Positions 37,604-42,967 of a stretch of DNA of 64,000 bases are shown here, piece by piece. The notes below the pieces were generated by a model. That model saw only the letters and a list, made by a program, of their open reading frames with translations, searched no databases and was not told where the DNA came from. Origin of the DNA: Streptomyces marispadix (GTDB lineage Bacteria > Actinomycetota > Actinomycetes > Streptomycetales > Streptomycetaceae); contig NZ_JAKWJU010000002.1 of NCBI RefSeq assembly GCF_022524345.1, forward strand, positions 4,316,501 to 4,380,500, read 5' to 3'. Both the position numbers and the translations under genes were made by a program. Each line of letters opens with the position of its first letter. Within the stretch, counting starts at the first letter, position 1.

Positions 37604-38905
37604 ATGACCGCGCAATACAGAGACTCCAGGCGATACGACGGAACCCGGGAACGGGTCTTCCAGGCATGTCACGATGCGATGCAGCCCTGCGGATTCACCA
37701 TCAAGTCTTCGCGGCCGGACACTTTCACCATCGAGGCGGAGTACCAGTACCGGGAGTCGCCGGGCGCCAACGCCGGACTCTTCGAGGAGTTCGCGTCGTT
37801 GGCCTTCGACAAGTTGTTATCCGGACGTTTCGGCGAGAGCATCACGCTCACCGTCGATGAAGACTCCCGGGTGCACGCCGTCAGCATTTCCCGCCCGAAG
37901 ACGACACTCCTCGATCAGGGCAAGAACCGGGAGAACATTCTCGCCATATGGAAGAAGATGGACTCGTATCTTCTCCACTCGCCGACCGTCGTGAACGATC
38001 ACAGTGTCACCATCGGCAACAACAGCGGGGTCGTGCAGAACGACAGCGTGGGCGATGTCCGGCAGACGAACGATTTCCGTGGCGGCGCCGAGGATCGCCC
38101 GCGTACGGCACCGGCGCCGGAAAGCCGCGACGAGGCCGACCGGTGGGAGATCGGAGTCATCACGGTCCTCAGCGAGGAGACGAAGGCCGTGATCTACGCG
38201 CTCGGACTGCACGGCCGGCGTATCGGCGGGCTCCATTTCTACGAGGGAGGGGCCGATGCGGGCGGGACCCCTGTGAGGGTCGTCGCGACGCGGGCTCTCG
38301 CGCAGGGGAACCGTTCTGCCATGGCGGCCTACGACAATCTGCGTCGGCACTACGATCCCAGAATCGTCGTGCTGGTGGGAATCGGCGGCGCCATTCGCAC
38401 GGAGGTCGCCGTGGGGGATGTCGTAGTAGCAGACCGGATCGTGTACTACGACCTTCGCAAGGAAACGAAGGAAGGCACCCGGCACAGAGGTGAGGAACGG
38501 GCCGCGCCTTCCGAAGTCGGCCACGCGGTCAACGCGTTCTTCACCGCCCACGACCCTGCCAGGTTCTCGATCGAAGACCCCGGCGGCGCGGTGCACGATA
38601 TGCGGATATGGCCGGGGCTCATCGGTTCAGGCGACGCGGTGATCGCGGATCATGAAGCCGAGATCCTCGAATACCTCGCCGGTTTCAACGACAAGATTCT
38701 CGCGGTGGACATGGAATCCGGGGGACTGACTGCGGCCTGCCACGAACAGTCGGCGTCTTCCGGGCAGTTGCAAGGCTGGCTCGTCGTCCGCGGTATCTCC
38801 GATGACGCGGGCGCCGGAAAGAACGACGACTACCACAGACTCGCGTCCTGGCACGCCGCGACGGCCCTGCGGAAGATCCTGCCCTATCTCGCCCCACCCC
38901 CGTGA
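37604..38905 (+). CDS. Two-domain protein: helix-grip-like N-terminus fused to a nucleoside phosphorylase/MTAN domain
   Basis: This 433-residue fusion has residues 1-120 (ERVFQACHDAMQPCGFTIKS, FTIEAEYQYRE, SITLTVDEDSRVHAVSISRP) like a small helix-grip/BamC-type binding domain. Residues 126-155 (VVNDHSVTIGNNSGVVQNDS) form the Asn/Gly beta linker common in actinobacterial conflict and signalling proteins. Residues 175-430 are a phosphorylase-1 domain: EIGVITVLSEETKAVIYALG, VVLVGIGGAIRTEVAVGDVV and VDMESGGLTAACHE. It should cleave a nucleoside or nucleotide signal. Codon 72 (37817-37819) is TTA, so expression depends on the bldA tRNA. GC content is lower than in neighbours, suggesting acquisition. 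TTGACG at 37535-37540 may be a -35. Confidence 0.85.
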   Translation: MTAQYRDSRRYDGTRERVFQACHDAMQPCGFTIKSSRPDTFTIEAEYQYRESPGANAGLFEEFASLAFDKLLSGRFGESITLTVDEDSRVHAVSISRPKTTLLDQGKNRENILAIWKKMDSYLLHSPTVVNDHSVTIGNNSGVVQNDSVGDVRQTNDFRGGAEDRPRTAPAPESRDEADRWEIGVITVLSEETKAVIYALGLHGRRIGGLHFYEGGADAGGTPVRVVATRALAQGNRSAMAAYDNLRRHYDPRIVVLVGIGGAIRTEVAVGDVVVADRIVYYDLRKETKEGTRHRGEERAAPSEVGHAVNAFFTAHDPARFSIEDPGGAVHDMRIWPGLIGSGDAVIADHEAEILEYLAGFNDKILAVDMESGGLTAACHEQSASSGQLQGWLVVRGISDDAGAGKNDDYHRLASWHAATALRKILPYLAPPP

Positions 38906-39081: not shown

Positions 39082-39105
39082 ACATCGAGGATGCGGAGGC
39101 GGCCC

Positions 39106-39312
39106 GTGGGGGAGTCGCGAGACGGCGAGCAGTTGACCGGGCGCCTGGCGGCCGTAGCGATATTAGGGTTCGTACTGATCATCCCGCCGTTGTTGACGCG
39201 TTTCGACCACGTGGACCGGGTCTTCGGGGTCCCGGTTCTGTGGGCTTACCTCTTCCTCGTGTGGGCGGTCGTGATCGGTCTGATCTCCGTGGTCGGCGGC
39301 AGGTCGAGGTAG
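39106..39312 (+). CDS. Small membrane protein, DUF3311-like
   Basis: This 68-residue protein has two transmembrane helices (LAAVAILGFVLIIPPLL and VPVLWAYLFLVWAVVIGLIS) joined by TRFDHVDRVFG. The layout matches DUF3311 proteins, which typically sit directly before a sodium:solute symporter and may be its accessory subunit, as here (4 nt before the next start). GTG 39106 has GGAGG 6 nt upstream. Confidence 0.8.
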   Translation: MGESRDGEQLTGRLAAVAILGFVLIIPPLLTRFDHVDRVFGVPVLWAYLFLVWAVVIGLISVVGGRSR

Positions 39313-39316
39313 CGCC

Positions 39317-42300
39317 GTGCTGCTCCAGACCTGGGTCGTCGTCGCTGTTTCGGTGATCTACCTCGGCCTGCTGTTCGCCGTGGCCTTCTATGCCGACAGG
39401 CGGGCGGACGCCGGCCGGAGCGTGATCAGCAGCGCCACGGTATACGCGCTGTCCCTCGCGGTGTACGAGACCGCATGGGCGTACTACGGCAACGTGGGCG
39501 GGGCCGCCATGAGCGGAGTCGGCTTTCTGTCCTTCTCGCTGGGGCCGACGCTCATGCTCGCGCTGGGCTGGCTGGTGCTGCGCAGAATCATCCGGATCAG
39601 CCGCCGGCACCGGATCACCTCGCTCGCCGACTTCGTCTCCGCCCGCTACGGCAAGAGCGCCGCGCTGGGCGGCCTGGTGACCGCCATTGCCGTGGTCGGG
39701 GTCGTTCCGTACATCTCGCTCCAACTCAAGGCGGTCTCCAACACCTTCGAGATCCTCCGCCGGCACCCCGACGTCACTTCCACCTCGGAGCTGGGCCACA
39801 TCCCCCTGTTCCAGGACACGGGGTTGTACGCGGCGCTGCTGCTGGCCGCGTTCGCCATCCTCTTCGGCACCCGTCATCTGGACGCCACCGAGCGCCACGA
39901 GGGCATGGTCGCCGCCATCGCCTTCGAGTCCGTGGTCAAGCTCGTGATGTTCCTCGCGGTCGGGATCTTCGTGACGTTCTGGGCGTTCGACGGGTTCGGC
40001 GACCTGTTCTCCCAGGCGGCGGACGCGGGCTTCACCCAGCTCTTCACACTGCGGGAGAACACCGGCTACGGCGAGTGGATCTGGCTCACGGCGCTGTCCA
40101 TGCTGGCGATCGTGCTGCTGCCCCGGCAGTGGCAGATCACCATCGTCGAGAACGTCGACGAGAGGCACCTCAAGCGGGCGATGTGGCTCTTCCCGCTGTA
40201 CCTGCTGGTGATCAACATCTTCGTGCTTCCGATCGGGGCCGGCGGGCTGCTGCGGTTCGGAGACTCCGTCGACGCCGACACCTATGTGCTGACCCTGCCG
40301 ATGGCCGAAGGACAGCAGGCGCTCGCACTGTTGGCCTTCATCGGCGGCCTCAGCGCGGGCACCGCCATGATCATCGTCGAGACGGTCGCGCTCAGCACCA
40401 TGGTGTCGAACTCGGTCGTCATGCCGCTGCTGCTGCGAGGCAAGTCCCGGCTGACGCGGCGGGAGGACCTCACCGGGCTGGTGCTGGGCATTCGCAGGGC
40501 GACCATCGTGCTGGTCCTGCTGCTCGGATACACCTACTTCCGGCTCGCCGGCGAGGGCCCGGGGCTGACAGCCATCGGAACGGTGTCGTTCGCGGCGGTG
40601 GCCCAGTTCGCGCCCGCGATCGTGGGCGGCCTGTTCTGGAAGGGCGGCACCCGCCAGGGAGCGCTGGCCGGCCTCGTGGCCGGGTTCGCCGTATGGGCGT
40701 ACACGCTGCTGCTGCCGAGCTTCGCCGACGCGGGGTTGCTGCCCGATTCCATCTTGCGCGAGGGCCCGCTGGGCATCGAACTGCTCCGGCCGCAGCACCT
40801 GTTCGGGCTGGAGGGGATGGACCCCGTCAGCCACGCGATGTTCTGGAGCGCGCTGCTGAACGTCGGCGGGTACGTCACGGTCTCCCTCGCCGGCGGGCCG
40901 GACGCTTCCGAACGGGCGCAGGCGGTGCAGTTCGTCGACATCCTCGCCGAGCCCGCCAGGGAGCGGCACCGGCAGGCCCGGGTCACGGTCGGCGAACTCC
41001 AGACGCTGCTGGAGCGCTTCCTGGGGCGGGAGGGTGCCCGGCGGGCGCTGCGCTCCTACCCGGGGAAGAGCCCCGATTCACCGGCAGCCGAAGCGGCCCC
41101 GGAACTCGTCCATCACGCCGAGGTCCAACTCGCCGGTTCGGTCGGCACGGCGTCCGCGCGGCTGGCGGTCGCCACGGTGGCCGGAGAGGAGCAGATCGGC
41201 ACCGACGAGGTGATCGAGATGCTCGGTGAGGCCTCGCAGCGGGTCGAAGTGGCCCGCAAACGCCTTGCGTTGCTCTACGACGCGAGTGGCGGCATCGGCA
41301 CGACCCTCGATGTGACGCGTACGGCCGAGGAGCTGGCGCAGGTCGCGGTGCCGCGCTTCGCCGACTACGTCACGGTCGATCTGGCCGAGCCCGTGCTGCA
41401 CGGTGACGAACCGGGGGTCGACGGCACCGGCACGGCCACCGGCGACGGCAGTACGCGGATGCAGCGCACGGCCTTCAGCGGCATCCACGACGACGCGCCC
41501 CTCTTCCCCCTCGGCGAGACGATCACTTTCGGGCCGTCCACGCCACAGGCCCGCAGCATCGAAAGCGGTCAGGCCGTGCTGGTGCCTCGTCTGAGCCATT
41601 CCTCAGGTTGGCATATCGATCACGCGCGAGCTTCCCGCATCCTCGACTACGGGATCCACTCGCTCATCACGGCGCCGCTGCCCGCCCGCGGAGCGACGCT
41701 CGGCGTCGTCAACTTCTGGCGCTCGGAGAAGCCCGAACCCTTCGAGCAGGACGACCTCTTCCTCGCGTCCGAACTGGCCGCCCGCGCCGCCGTCTGCCTC
41801 GACAACGCCCGCCGCTACACCCGTGAGCACGGCATGGCCGTCACGCTCCAGCGCAGCCTGCTGCCGCGTGCGCTGCCCGAACAGAACGCCGTCGAGGTCG
41901 CCTCCCGCTATCTGCCCGCACAAGAGGGCGTCGGCGGCGACTGGTTCGACGTCATCCCGCTGCCCGGCGCCCGCGTCGCGCTGGTCATGGGCGACGTCGT
42001 CGGACACGGGCTGCACGCCGCGGCCACCATGGGACGGCTGCGCACCGCCGTGCACAACTTCTCCTCTCTCGACCTGCCGCCCGACGAACTCCTCGGCCAT
42101 CTCGACGAGTTGGTCACCCGCATCGACCAGGACGCCATCGAGGCCGGCGATGAGACCGCCATCACCGGCGCCACCTGCCTCTACGCCGTCTACGACTCCA
42201 TCTCCCGCAACTGCGCGGTGGCCCGAGCCGGCCACCCGACGCCCGCGCTGGCGCGTCCCTGCGGCACGGTGGAGTTCCTGGACGTACCGTCCGGGCTTCC

Positions 42301-42967
42301 ACTGGGCATCGGCGGACTGCCCTTCGAGGCGACCGAGTTGCACATGCCCGAGGGCAGCAGGCTCGTGCTGTTCACCGACGGCCTCGTCGAACGCCGCGAC
42401 CAGGACATCGACACCGGGCTCCAGATGCTCCGCGAGACCCTCGAAGGCGCCGACCAGTCGCCCGAGTCGACCTGCGACGCCGTCCTCGACGGCCTCCTCC
42501 CGGAGCTTCAGAGCGACGACATCGCGCTCCTCGTCGCCCGTACGCAGGCGCTGGGCGCAAGCCAAGTCGCGGAATGGGACGTGGAGTCCGACCCCTCCGC
42601 CGTCGCCGACGTGCGCGCCTCCGCCGCGCCACAGCTCGCGGCGTGGGACCTCGAAGAGCAAGGCTTCATCACGGAGCTGATCCTCAGCGAACTGATCACC
42701 AACGCGATCCGCCACGCGTCCGGGCCCATCAACGTGCGCCTGATACGCGACCGTTCGCTCATCTGCGAGGTCTCCGACCAGAGCAGCACCTCACCGCACC
42801 TGCGCTACGCCGCCACCACGGACGAGGGCGGACGCGGCCTCTTCCTCGTCTCCCAGCTCGCCGAACGCTGGGGCACCCGCTACACCAAGGACGGCAAAGT
42901 CATCTGGGCCGAACAGGCGATCCCTCATCCCCGCCGAACGACCGACGCGGCCCACGGACCGTCCTGA
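39317..42967 (+). CDS. Sodium:solute symporter fused to STAC-like, GAF, SpoIIE phosphatase and HATPase domains
   Basis: This is a 1216-residue multidomain membrane sensor. Residues about 1-530 form a 13-helix SSS symporter (AVYETAWAYYGNVGGAAMSG, LADFVSARYGKSAALGGL, AQFAPAIVGGLFWKGGT). Residues about 545-590 (RVTVGELQTLLERFLGREG) resemble the STAC linker of CbrA-type transporter kinases. A GAF domain follows (about 650-835), then a PP2C/SpoIIE phosphatase (about 858-1075) with GVGGDWFDV, MGDVVGHGLHAA, LFTDGLVERRDQD and SDDIALLVA. A C-terminal RsbW-like HATPase (about 1085-1205) has LSELITNAIRHASG and DEGGRGLFLVSQ. No histidine-kinase H box is seen. It should couple transport or solute sensing to partner switching of an anti-sigma antagonist. 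The substrate is unknown. Confidence 0.92.
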   Translation: MLLQTWVVVAVSVIYLGLLFAVAFYADRRADAGRSVISSATVYALSLAVYETAWAYYGNVGGAAMSGVGFLSFSLGPTLMLALGWLVLRRIIRISRRHRITSLADFVSARYGKSAALGGLVTAIAVVGVVPYISLQLKAVSNTFEILRRHPDVTSTSELGHIPLFQDTGLYAALLLAAFAILFGTRHLDATERHEGMVAAIAFESVVKLVMFLAVGIFVTFWAFDGFGDLFSQAADAGFTQLFTLRENTGYGEWIWLTALSMLAIVLLPRQWQITIVENVDERHLKRAMWLFPLYLLVINIFVLPIGAGGLLRFGDSVDADTYVLTLPMAEGQQALALLAFIGGLSAGTAMIIVETVALSTMVSNSVVMPLLLRGKSRLTRREDLTGLVLGIRRATIVLVLLLGYTYFRLAGEGPGLTAIGTVSFAAVAQFAPAIVGGLFWKGGTRQGALAGLVAGFAVWAYTLLLPSFADAGLLPDSILREGPLGIELLRPQHLFGLEGMDPVSHAMFWSALLNVGGYVTVSLAGGPDASERAQAVQFVDILAEPARERHRQARVTVGELQTLLERFLGREGARRALRSYPGKSPDSPAAEAAPELVHHAEVQLAGSVGTASARLAVATVAGEEQIGTDEVIEMLGEASQRVEVARKRLALLYDASGGIGTTLDVTRTAEELAQVAVPRFADYVTVDLAEPVLHGDEPGVDGTGTATGDGSTRMQRTAFSGIHDDAPLFPLGETITFGPSTPQARSIESGQAVLVPRLSHSSGWHIDHARASRILDYGIHSLITAPLPARGATLGVVNFWRSEKPEPFEQDDLFLASELAARAAVCLDNARRYTREHGMAVTLQRSLLPRALPEQNAVEVASRYLPAQEGVGGDWFDVIPLPGARVALVMGDVVGHGLHAAATMGRLRTAVHNFSSLDLPPDELLGHLDELVTRIDQDAIEAGDETAITGATCLYAVYDSISRNCAVARAGHPTPALARPCGTVEFLDVPSGLPLGIGGLPFEATELHMPEGSRLVLFTDGLVERRDQDIDTGLQMLRETLEGADQSPESTCDAVLDGLLPELQSDDIALLVARTQALGASQVAEWDVESDPSAVADVRASAAPQLAAWDLEEQGFITELILSELITNAIRHASGPINVRLIRDRSLICEVSDQSSTSPHLRYAATTDEGGRGLFLVSQLAERWGTRYTKDGKVIWAEQAIPHPRRTTDAAHGPS

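Follow-up and report, generated by a model that had tools for sequence, protein, structure and literature searches.

A Streptomyces fusion of an SLC5/STAC sensor with a GAF-SpoIIE-HATPase module and the small hairpin protein encoded upstream

The locus and its two proteins

A stretch of 64,000 nucleotides of the Streptomyces marispadix genome (contig NZ_JAKWJU010000002.1, positions 4,316,501 to 4,380,500; the window) contains two adjoining genes on the forward strand, a small one for a membrane hairpin protein and a large one for a fusion protein (Table 1). In the fusion, a sensor of the SLC5/SSS transporter type and a STAC region precede a GAF domain, a SpoIIE/PPM phosphatase and an RsbW-like HATPase, the last two being a phosphatase-kinase pair of the kind known from the control of stress genes. 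We consider it probable, with some reserve, that this protein is a ligand-sensing receptor (transceptor) whose output was exchanged once in Streptomyces, from a histidine kinase to a GAF-SpoIIE-HATPase partner-switching module.

Table 1. Features of the hairpin-fusion locus in window coordinates (aa, amino acids; nt, nucleotides; ORF, open reading frame; HMM, hidden Markov model; pLDDT, predicted local distance difference test)
Feature	Position	Strand	Basis
Shine-Dalgarno-like GGAGG, 6 nt before the hairpin GTG	39095..39099	+	read from the sequence
68-aa two-helix membrane hairpin protein, CbrX-like in place and shape	39106..39312	+	ORF, HMM, family scans
GGTCGAGG, possible ribosome-binding site of the fusion within the end of the hairpin ORF	39302..39309	+	read from the sequence
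SSS-STAC-GAF-SpoIIE-HATPase fusion, 1216 aa, GTG start	39317..42967	+	single open frame; Pfam; protein search
SLC5/SSS transporter-type sensor domain, residues 1 to about 540	39317..40936	+	match to CbrA chain 10ed_A; Foldseek SLC5
K208 codon, position of CbrA K196 that fills the Na2 site	39938..39940	+	alignment; PMC13022988
STAC region, about residues 555-625	40979..41191	+	alignment through to CrbS-like kinase; three modelled helices
Post-STAC stretch, residues 632-657, modelled helix with pLDDT <50; contains the homology switch	41210..41287	+
GAF domain, residues 740-828	41534..41800	+	Pfam (E 8e-8)
SpoIIE/PPM phosphatase domain with metal-site aspartate motifs, residues 873-1076	41933..42544	+	Pfam SpoIIE 884-1076 (E 5e-52); motifs
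RsbW-like HATPase_c_2 domain, residues 1090-1197, N box SELITNA	42584..42907	+	Pfam (E 2e-10); motifs

The first-pass annotation of this DNA had proposed one frame with SSS, GAF, PP2C and RsbW-like HATPase parts, and this was confirmed by the ORF, Pfam, the CbrA chain and the motifs. The N-terminal half is too divergent for the Pfam SSF model, which gave no match there at E ≤ 1 in the Pfam scan. TIGR00813 matched it with 18.8 bits (E 7e-4), and the chain of CbrA solved by cryo-electron microscopy, 10ed_A, aligned to residues 8-470 (E 4e-67). A model of the 658-residue sensor (mean pLDDT 69, predicted template modelling score 0.73) was helical throughout, and Foldseek led from it to the SLC5 structures SGLT1, NIS and SiaT (E 6e-8 to 1.2e-6). 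The STAC region was spanned by an alignment of residues 3-638, with 41.5 % identity, to a CrbS-like kinase; of the four helices of a STAC domain the model showed only three, in the stretch 558-621 and at medium confidence.

In the C-terminal half, the phosphatase and HATPase motifs quoted in the annotation are present: GGDWFD (873), MGDVVGHG (891), LFTDGL (1018), SDDIAL (1066), SELITNA (1124) and GGRGL (1171). All four metal-site aspartate motifs occur in the window protein, and between 37 and 39 of the 39 fusion rows have each of them; the N box with Glu and Asn was found in 35 and the glycine-rich lid in 38 of these rows, some of which are partial. Glu and Asn of the N box are catalytic in SpoIIAB. 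A HisKA or HisKA_3 phospho-acceptor domain was not reported by the Pfam scan of the fusion. The Rv1364c chain 3ke6_A matched residues 854-1134 (E 9e-18).

The combination of a phosphatase with an RsbW-like part is known from other proteins. Rv1364c and OsaC are described examples (PMC12143880, PMC10117811), and modules like the C half were present in all 199 same-genus genomes searched. The SSS-GAF-PP2C_SIG-HATPase architecture is itself already in print: a paper of 2021, PMC7918813, reported SSS with HATPase_c, GAF and PP2C_SIG in Actinobacteria (section 5.1.1 and legend of figure 6). A literature search for PP2C_SIG, HATPase and symporter found this paper only; one for SpoIIE, sodium solute symporter and Streptomyces, which would miss 'sodium/solute' spellings, found none, and one for transceptor and SpoIIE gave unrelated items only. 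What the present analysis contributes is the origin by a single swap, the site of the join, the lysine at the sodium position, the altered pocket and a hairpin that looks obligate.

Distribution and split copies

The protein search with the fusion scored 7997 proteins, of which the best 120 were listed. Among these were at least 27 full-length relatives with 76-96 % identity, all named ones from Streptomyces; the list also contained one partial fusion, eight whose annotated start comes late, one that starts only at residue 423 and, from the window's own genome, the C half of a second copy. At E ≤ 1e-100 the sensor was detected in 7 of 392 same-genus genomes, in 6 of 147 genomes of the order, each of them from this genus, and in 2 of 396 genomes of the phylum, namely the window's own and one kinase-type. 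Since so few genomes hold the sensor at each of these levels, its distribution is rare and patchy. An assembly error joining two genes, which the annotation had named as a threat to the fusion, is ruled out by the full-length relatives and by the occurrence in 7 of 392 genomes.

The second SSS-STAC-SpoIIE copy in the own genome (G000:C2:6348939-6352557, L057:9940-13573) has its own hairpin and lies in two frames. It is broken around residues 519-537, a copy in genome G413 around residues 413-415. Pseudogenes and sequencing errors cannot be told apart here; a programmed frameshift was considered and dropped because the breaks sit at different places.

Eight annotated proteins, P0031-P0038 (855-879 aa; L044), looked like truncations, yet their annotated starts are methionines 329 or 351 inside the SSS domain. 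In genome G233, the tentative counterpart of P0032, the whole frame of 1229 aa is open, so the late start is probably a mis-annotation that hides a fusion, at least in this case. In genome G389 two fusion genes stand in tandem (L063:7251-15408); the upstream ORF of the second keeps the two hairpin helices, that of the first is without them.

Origin of the fusion

The two parts of the fusion have different nearest relatives. Residues 2-651 were 84 % identical, over a span of 651 residues, to P0040, an SSS-histidine kinase of Streptomyces. From residue 640 onwards the closest proteins were of the sCache_3-PAS-GAF-SpoIIE-HATPase type with 77-80 % identity (80 % to P0047, 78 % to P0051, which like P0053 is encoded on the window's own contig). 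The homology switches from kinase-type to phosphatase-type at residues 640-642, between EASQ and RVEV (638-645), just past STAC. This join lies in the stretch that corresponds to the linker of RsbU, where the linkers are reported to act as the switch by forming a coiled coil through which the PPM domains dimerise (PMC12143880).

A sensor tree of 75 rows was calculated by a quick method, with 32 of at least 70 kinase-type proteins listed and 12 of 80 genome loci. These loci are the best 80 of 573 confirmed candidates, represent the nearest sensor subfamily only and belong to six phyla: Pseudomonadota (66), Thermodesulfobacteriota (6), Actinomycetota, Myxococcota, Chloroflexota and Bacteroidota (2 each). 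In the tree, the 29 SpoIIE-type rows and P0040 formed one set (support 99), nested in a set of 53 kinase and SpoIIE rows (support 100) that itself stood among other kinases. A tree of the C-terminal module, with 82 rows from tblastn-defined stretches (39 fusion, 43 others), placed all fusion rows in a single clade (support 99) beside Cache-PAS forms. The approximately unbiased test did not reject a clade of the SpoIIE-type sensor rows from which P0040 is excluded (p-AU 0.285, 73 rows), nor did the tree contain one; P0040 may represent an unswapped sister or a later swap back. Because the sensor nests inside the SSS-kinases and the phosphatase half has one origin, a single natural swap from kinase to phosphatase is the simplest account. 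Join alignment and trees together support the earlier proposal of a CbrA-like SSS sensor whose histidine kinase was replaced by an output of the partner-switching type.

Ion site and pocket of the sensor

The pocket and the ion site of CbrA have been described, including K196, which fills the Na2 site (PMC13022988). K208 of the fusion is its equivalent, and lysine occupied this position in all 75 rows compared; an intact Na2 sodium site was found in none of them. W54 and F425 were likewise invariant, and the equivalent of CbrA F248 is S261, with serine in 71 of 75 rows. Sodium coupling is ruled out by K208 at the Na2 position. The sodium symport assumed in the annotation is contradicted by the very observation it had named as adverse, a loss of the sodium-site residues across homologues, as far as sodium is concerned. 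CbrA is reported to be proton-driven (PMC7096432).

The annotation had gone further and let solute flux control the output. A switch of this kind, in which SSS transport cycles would drive the phosphatase and hence a sigma factor directly, is highly improbable. CbrA does transport histidine, and first evidence suggests an effect of SLC5 on kinase kinetics via STAC (PMC7096432). In Pseudomonas, however, a CrbS/CbrA chimera signalled without histidine transport through SLC5, its kinase being activated without transport of the cognate solute (PMC5715377); solute flux is therefore unlikely to be the signal. The lysine at the sodium site and the lack of a sigma factor linked to the fusion locus also speak against flux.

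A signature of 13 pocket or near-pocket residues was identical in 37 of 42 kinase-type rows, P0040 included, and was shared by 13 of the 29 SpoIIE-type rows; a fourteenth departed at position 211 only. The remaining 15, among them the window protein and the N-terminal frame of the second copy in its genome, carried Ala (10) or Gly (5) instead of T55 and additional changes, varying by row, at positions 50, 74, 78, 211, 212, 261 and 422. At the same time, 140 of the 169 sites nearly invariant in the kinase-type rows were unchanged in all SpoIIE-type rows. Five of the eight sites altered in at least five rows fell within 4 residues of pocket positions; Fisher p values were 0.004-0.010 within this distance and 0.056-0.41 on the exact positions, in a post hoc comparison of rows that are not independent. 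We read this post hoc test as pointing to a scaffold that was kept and a pocket that may have been retuned in the subclade of the window protein. Median ratios of nonsynonymous to synonymous substitution (dN/dS; 11 sequences, 55 pairs) were 0.39 for SSS, 0.47 for the second helix of SSS, 0.29 for STAC, 0.46 for GAF, 0.25 for SpoIIE and 0.29 for HATPase, all six below 0.5 and all rough owing to skewed codon use.

These data bear on a further explanation, that the cytosolic GAF domain does the sensing and SSS-STAC serves mainly as membrane anchor or dimer scaffold. We regard it as rather unlikely. The membrane part of CbrA is dispensable when the remainder is over-produced, and a cytosolic PAS signal has been proposed (PMC6591292, PMC7918813); the transport-independent CrbS/CbrA chimeras (PMC5715377) and the two copies whose frame breaks within the SSS half or at its end would also fit an anchor. 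The 140 unchanged sites and the conserved K208 are at odds with it, and the changes near the pocket resemble retuning more than random decay, a pattern noticed post hoc.

The hairpin protein

The stop codon of the hairpin ORF (39310-39312) lies 4 nt ahead of the GTG of the fusion, and translation of the two genes is likely coupled, given this short distance and the possible ribosome-binding site inside the hairpin ORF. The same spacing of 4 nt was found in 11 of 12 copies examined, one of which, the first copy of L063, has the upstream frame without the two helices; in L058 the spacing is 3 nt. Among ORF families in 13 Streptomyces stretches from 11 genomes, the hairpin was besides the fusion the only one present in more than six stretches: ORF calling found it in 11, the HMM in all 13. 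Of the 14 Streptomyces fusion copies, 13 were preceded by it, two of these 13 being split.

The hairpin HMM was built from 10 seeds, nine of them from the 80 loci, and searched against the six-frame ORFs of at least 35 codons in these loci (1.25 Mb). At E ≤ 0.01 it gave 80 matches, one per locus, each just upstream of the sensor gene on the same strand (71 of 71 when the seed loci were excluded). The ORF ended between 13 nt inside and 187 nt before the estimated sensor start in 79 cases and 41 nt inside the sensor, 1 nt past the preset limit, in the last. All 78 loci from outside Streptomyces had the hairpin upstream, as did one further actinobacterial locus. In a search of the 392 Streptomyces genomes, with 15 candidates scored per genome and a query alignment to which 3 of the 7 sensor genomes contributed, matches below 1e-20 occurred in exactly those 7 genomes that hold the sensor; one more match, at 1e-3, was marginal.

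Neither Pfam nor NCBIfam contained a fitting family for the hairpin. The annotation had called it a DUF3311 (PF11755) partner; the ORF is real and conserved, though the window hairpin did not match this model and only 2 of 16 family members scanned did, with a best E of 0.07. Against the CbrX ORF of Pseudomonas aestuarii the HMM scored 10.8 bits, with E 0.0032 when the ORFs of three loci were searched and E 0.033 for the best domain, and this ORF ranked second among itself and 999 shuffles, one shuffle scoring higher; the comparison hints weakly at homology with CbrX by sequence. No hairpin ORF was found upstream of the CrbS-like gene of P. aestuarii.

CbrX binds the transporter domain of CbrA as a helical hairpin (PMC13022988), its conservation has been described within Pseudomonadaceae, and a similarity to transporters of the major facilitator superfamily type has been reported (PMC8871633). 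In the parts of the CbrX literature covered by a search that was not exhaustive, no mention was found of CbrX homologues beside other SLC5-STAC genes. The occurrence of a hairpin without family model beside the sensor subfamily in six phyla suggests a general subunit, of which CbrX would be one example, rather than a peculiarity of Pseudomonas.

Relatives of the sensor and ligand clues

The sensor was 49-61 % identical in the 78 loci from outside Streptomyces, of which 74 had a kinase-type C half by BLAST, one a broken frame and three longer frames. The longer SSS-STAC frames (1024-1067 aa) have the same hairpin upstream and belong to Pseudomonas tumuqii, Thauera terpenica and a metagenome-assembled genome of Lysobacteraceae (L098:5083-8283, L116:8001-11201 and L111:969-4041, the latter running off its contig). 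L098 was scanned and has a GGDEF-EAL output, so that the relatives of the sensor carry HisKA, HisKA_3 and, in this one scanned case, GGDEF-EAL. GGDEF fusions to STAC were known earlier (PMC5715377).

Neighbours of the sensor gene in the 80 loci (L069-L148) were clustered from crudely called ORFs, with one member per cluster scanned and 78 of the loci not from Streptomyces. The clusters included a REC-only (CheY-like) ORF (36 loci), a predicted exonuclease (30) and a DUF294/CBS protein (28), as well as an SSF transporter (16), acetyl-CoA synthetase (11) and DUF4212 (8). Acs, actP and a CBS-nucleotidyltransferase protein are members of the CrbS acetate regulon in Pseudomonas fluorescens (PMC5715377), and the resemblance of the sensor neighbours to members of this regulon points, indirectly, to acetate or a similar monocarboxylate as ancestral ligand. 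This inference may not apply to the altered pocket of the window protein. In the window itself, a nucleoside-phosphorylase-superfamily protein (PF01048, E 5e-20, residues 183-414) with an N-terminal region of no assigned family is encoded at 37604-38905 (+).

Output and interpretation

The genome of 6.7 Mb has 31 SpoIIE matches, eight sigma factors of the SigB/F/G type over the cut-off and six STAS_2 matches, five of them over the cut-off. The direct control of a sigma factor that the annotation had deduced finds no counterpart at the locus, where only the hairpin, besides the fusion, recurs in more than six of the 13 Streptomyces stretches; the nearest sigma factor and STAS_2 gene are about 250 and 330 kb away. 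Partner switching need not end at a sigma factor; its target could instead be, for example, an enzyme to which a STAS protein binds. In Pseudomonas aeruginosa, PP2C partner switching by SiaA/SiaB/SiaC controls a diguanylate cyclase according to carbon supply (PMC7647112). The lack of an adjoining sigma gene agrees with a target that is not a sigma factor, whereas the eight sigma factors and six STAS_2 matches of the genome and the report that Streptomyces OsaC binds and modulates sigma-B (PMC10117811) make it unlikely.

For the receptor with exchanged output, we propose the following course of events. The hairpin would bind the sensor in analogy to CbrX and CbrA. Binding of a small solute would alter the sensor, with the hairpin as subunit; the ancestral solute may have been acetate or a related monocarboxylate, that of the window's subclade a different one. 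STAC and the following predicted helix could relay this alteration to GAF-PPM by changing the geometry of the dimer. The PPM domain might then dephosphorylate a STAS anti-sigma antagonist, and the HATPase domain might rephosphorylate the antagonist or bind a partner. The gene of the target would probably lie elsewhere in the genome, and some of the other 30 SpoIIE matches would use the same target. Transport may take place; it would probably not be the signal.

Several points weigh against this reading. A search of the genome for SigB/F/G-type sigma factors and, among STAS models, for STAS_2 found no such gene adjacent to the fusion. The helix modelled at the join has low confidence (pLDDT <50); the C half was modelled poorly (pLDDT 55), and this second model is excluded from the conclusions. 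The pocket changes could reflect relaxed constraint, with a dN/dS of 0.39 in SSS versus 0.25 in SpoIIE, and the two split copies imply that sensor function need not be retained. The upstream ORF of the first gene of the tandem pair has lost its membrane part, which leaves one fusion copy without hairpin; CbrA is reported to be translated irrespective of the peptide sequence of CbrX (PMC6591292), and CbrX was dispensable for growth on histidine (PMC13022988).

A broader proposal is more tentative and, in our estimate, falls somewhat short of an even chance. Hairpin, SLC5-STAC receptor and coiled-coil join would together form one exchangeable input cassette for three outputs: histidine kinases, cyclic-di-GMP enzymes and partner-switching phosphatases. 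The hairpin would be an obligate subunit of the sensor subfamily across phyla, not merely a translation-coupling peptide. The phosphatase version in Streptomyces would have been duplicated and its copies changed in ligand specificity, which would lead to direct nutrient receptors for stress sigma control. The exchange of sensor modules among histidine kinases, GGDEF enzymes and PPM phosphatases via coiled-coil linkers has been proposed (PMC12143880). The present locus offers a natural pair: the sensors of the window fusion and of a Streptomyces kinase are 84 % identical, the former is joined to a phosphatase and the latter to a kinase, and the homology changes in the linking stretch; swapping these two natural proteins makes the hypothesis testable. 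The fusion is real and of interest, while the mechanism first claimed for it exceeds the evidence.

Comparison with known systems

A close described counterpart is CbrA-CbrX of Pseudomonas, an SLC5-STAC-PAS-histidine kinase with its hairpin peptide. The SLC5 fold, the lysine at the Na2 position, the STAC region and a small two-helix protein encoded just upstream (PMC13022988) are shared. The output differs, GAF-SpoIIE-HATPase without HisKA, and so does the pocket, with F248 in CbrA versus S261; the sensor is about 36 % identical over 469 residues to CbrA of P. aestuarii. The acetate and pyruvate sensors CrbS/MxtR and RpuS also have an SLC5-STAC sensor, in CrbS with an S-helix between STAC and kinase (PMC5715377), but are hybrid kinases with REC (PMC9100948). 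The protein with 41.5 % identity to the fusion mentioned above is from P. aestuarii and was named CrbS-like from its 1164-aa frame and its PAS-kinase sequence.

Uncharacterised SSS-STAC-histidine kinases of about 900 aa from Pseudomonadota, Actinomycetota and others share the sensor and the upstream hairpin and differ in their kinase-type C half; by tree, the actinobacterial ones are nearest to the fusion sensor. The proteins listed from SMART in PMC7918813, from three Streptomyces and Actinospica acidiphila, have the same architecture, while the section and legend cited contain no word on STAC in these proteins, the hairpin, the ancestry or the pocket. On the output side, OsaC and Rv1364c are GSR phosphatases, Rv1364c being fused to an anti-sigma domain (PMC12143880), and the kinase domain of OsaC is reported to bind sigma-B in PMC10117811, which calls OsaC a histidine kinase-receiver hybrid. 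In contrast to the fusion, both have PAS/GAF sensors and no transporter, and Rv1364c adds an anti-anti-sigma domain (PMC12143880).

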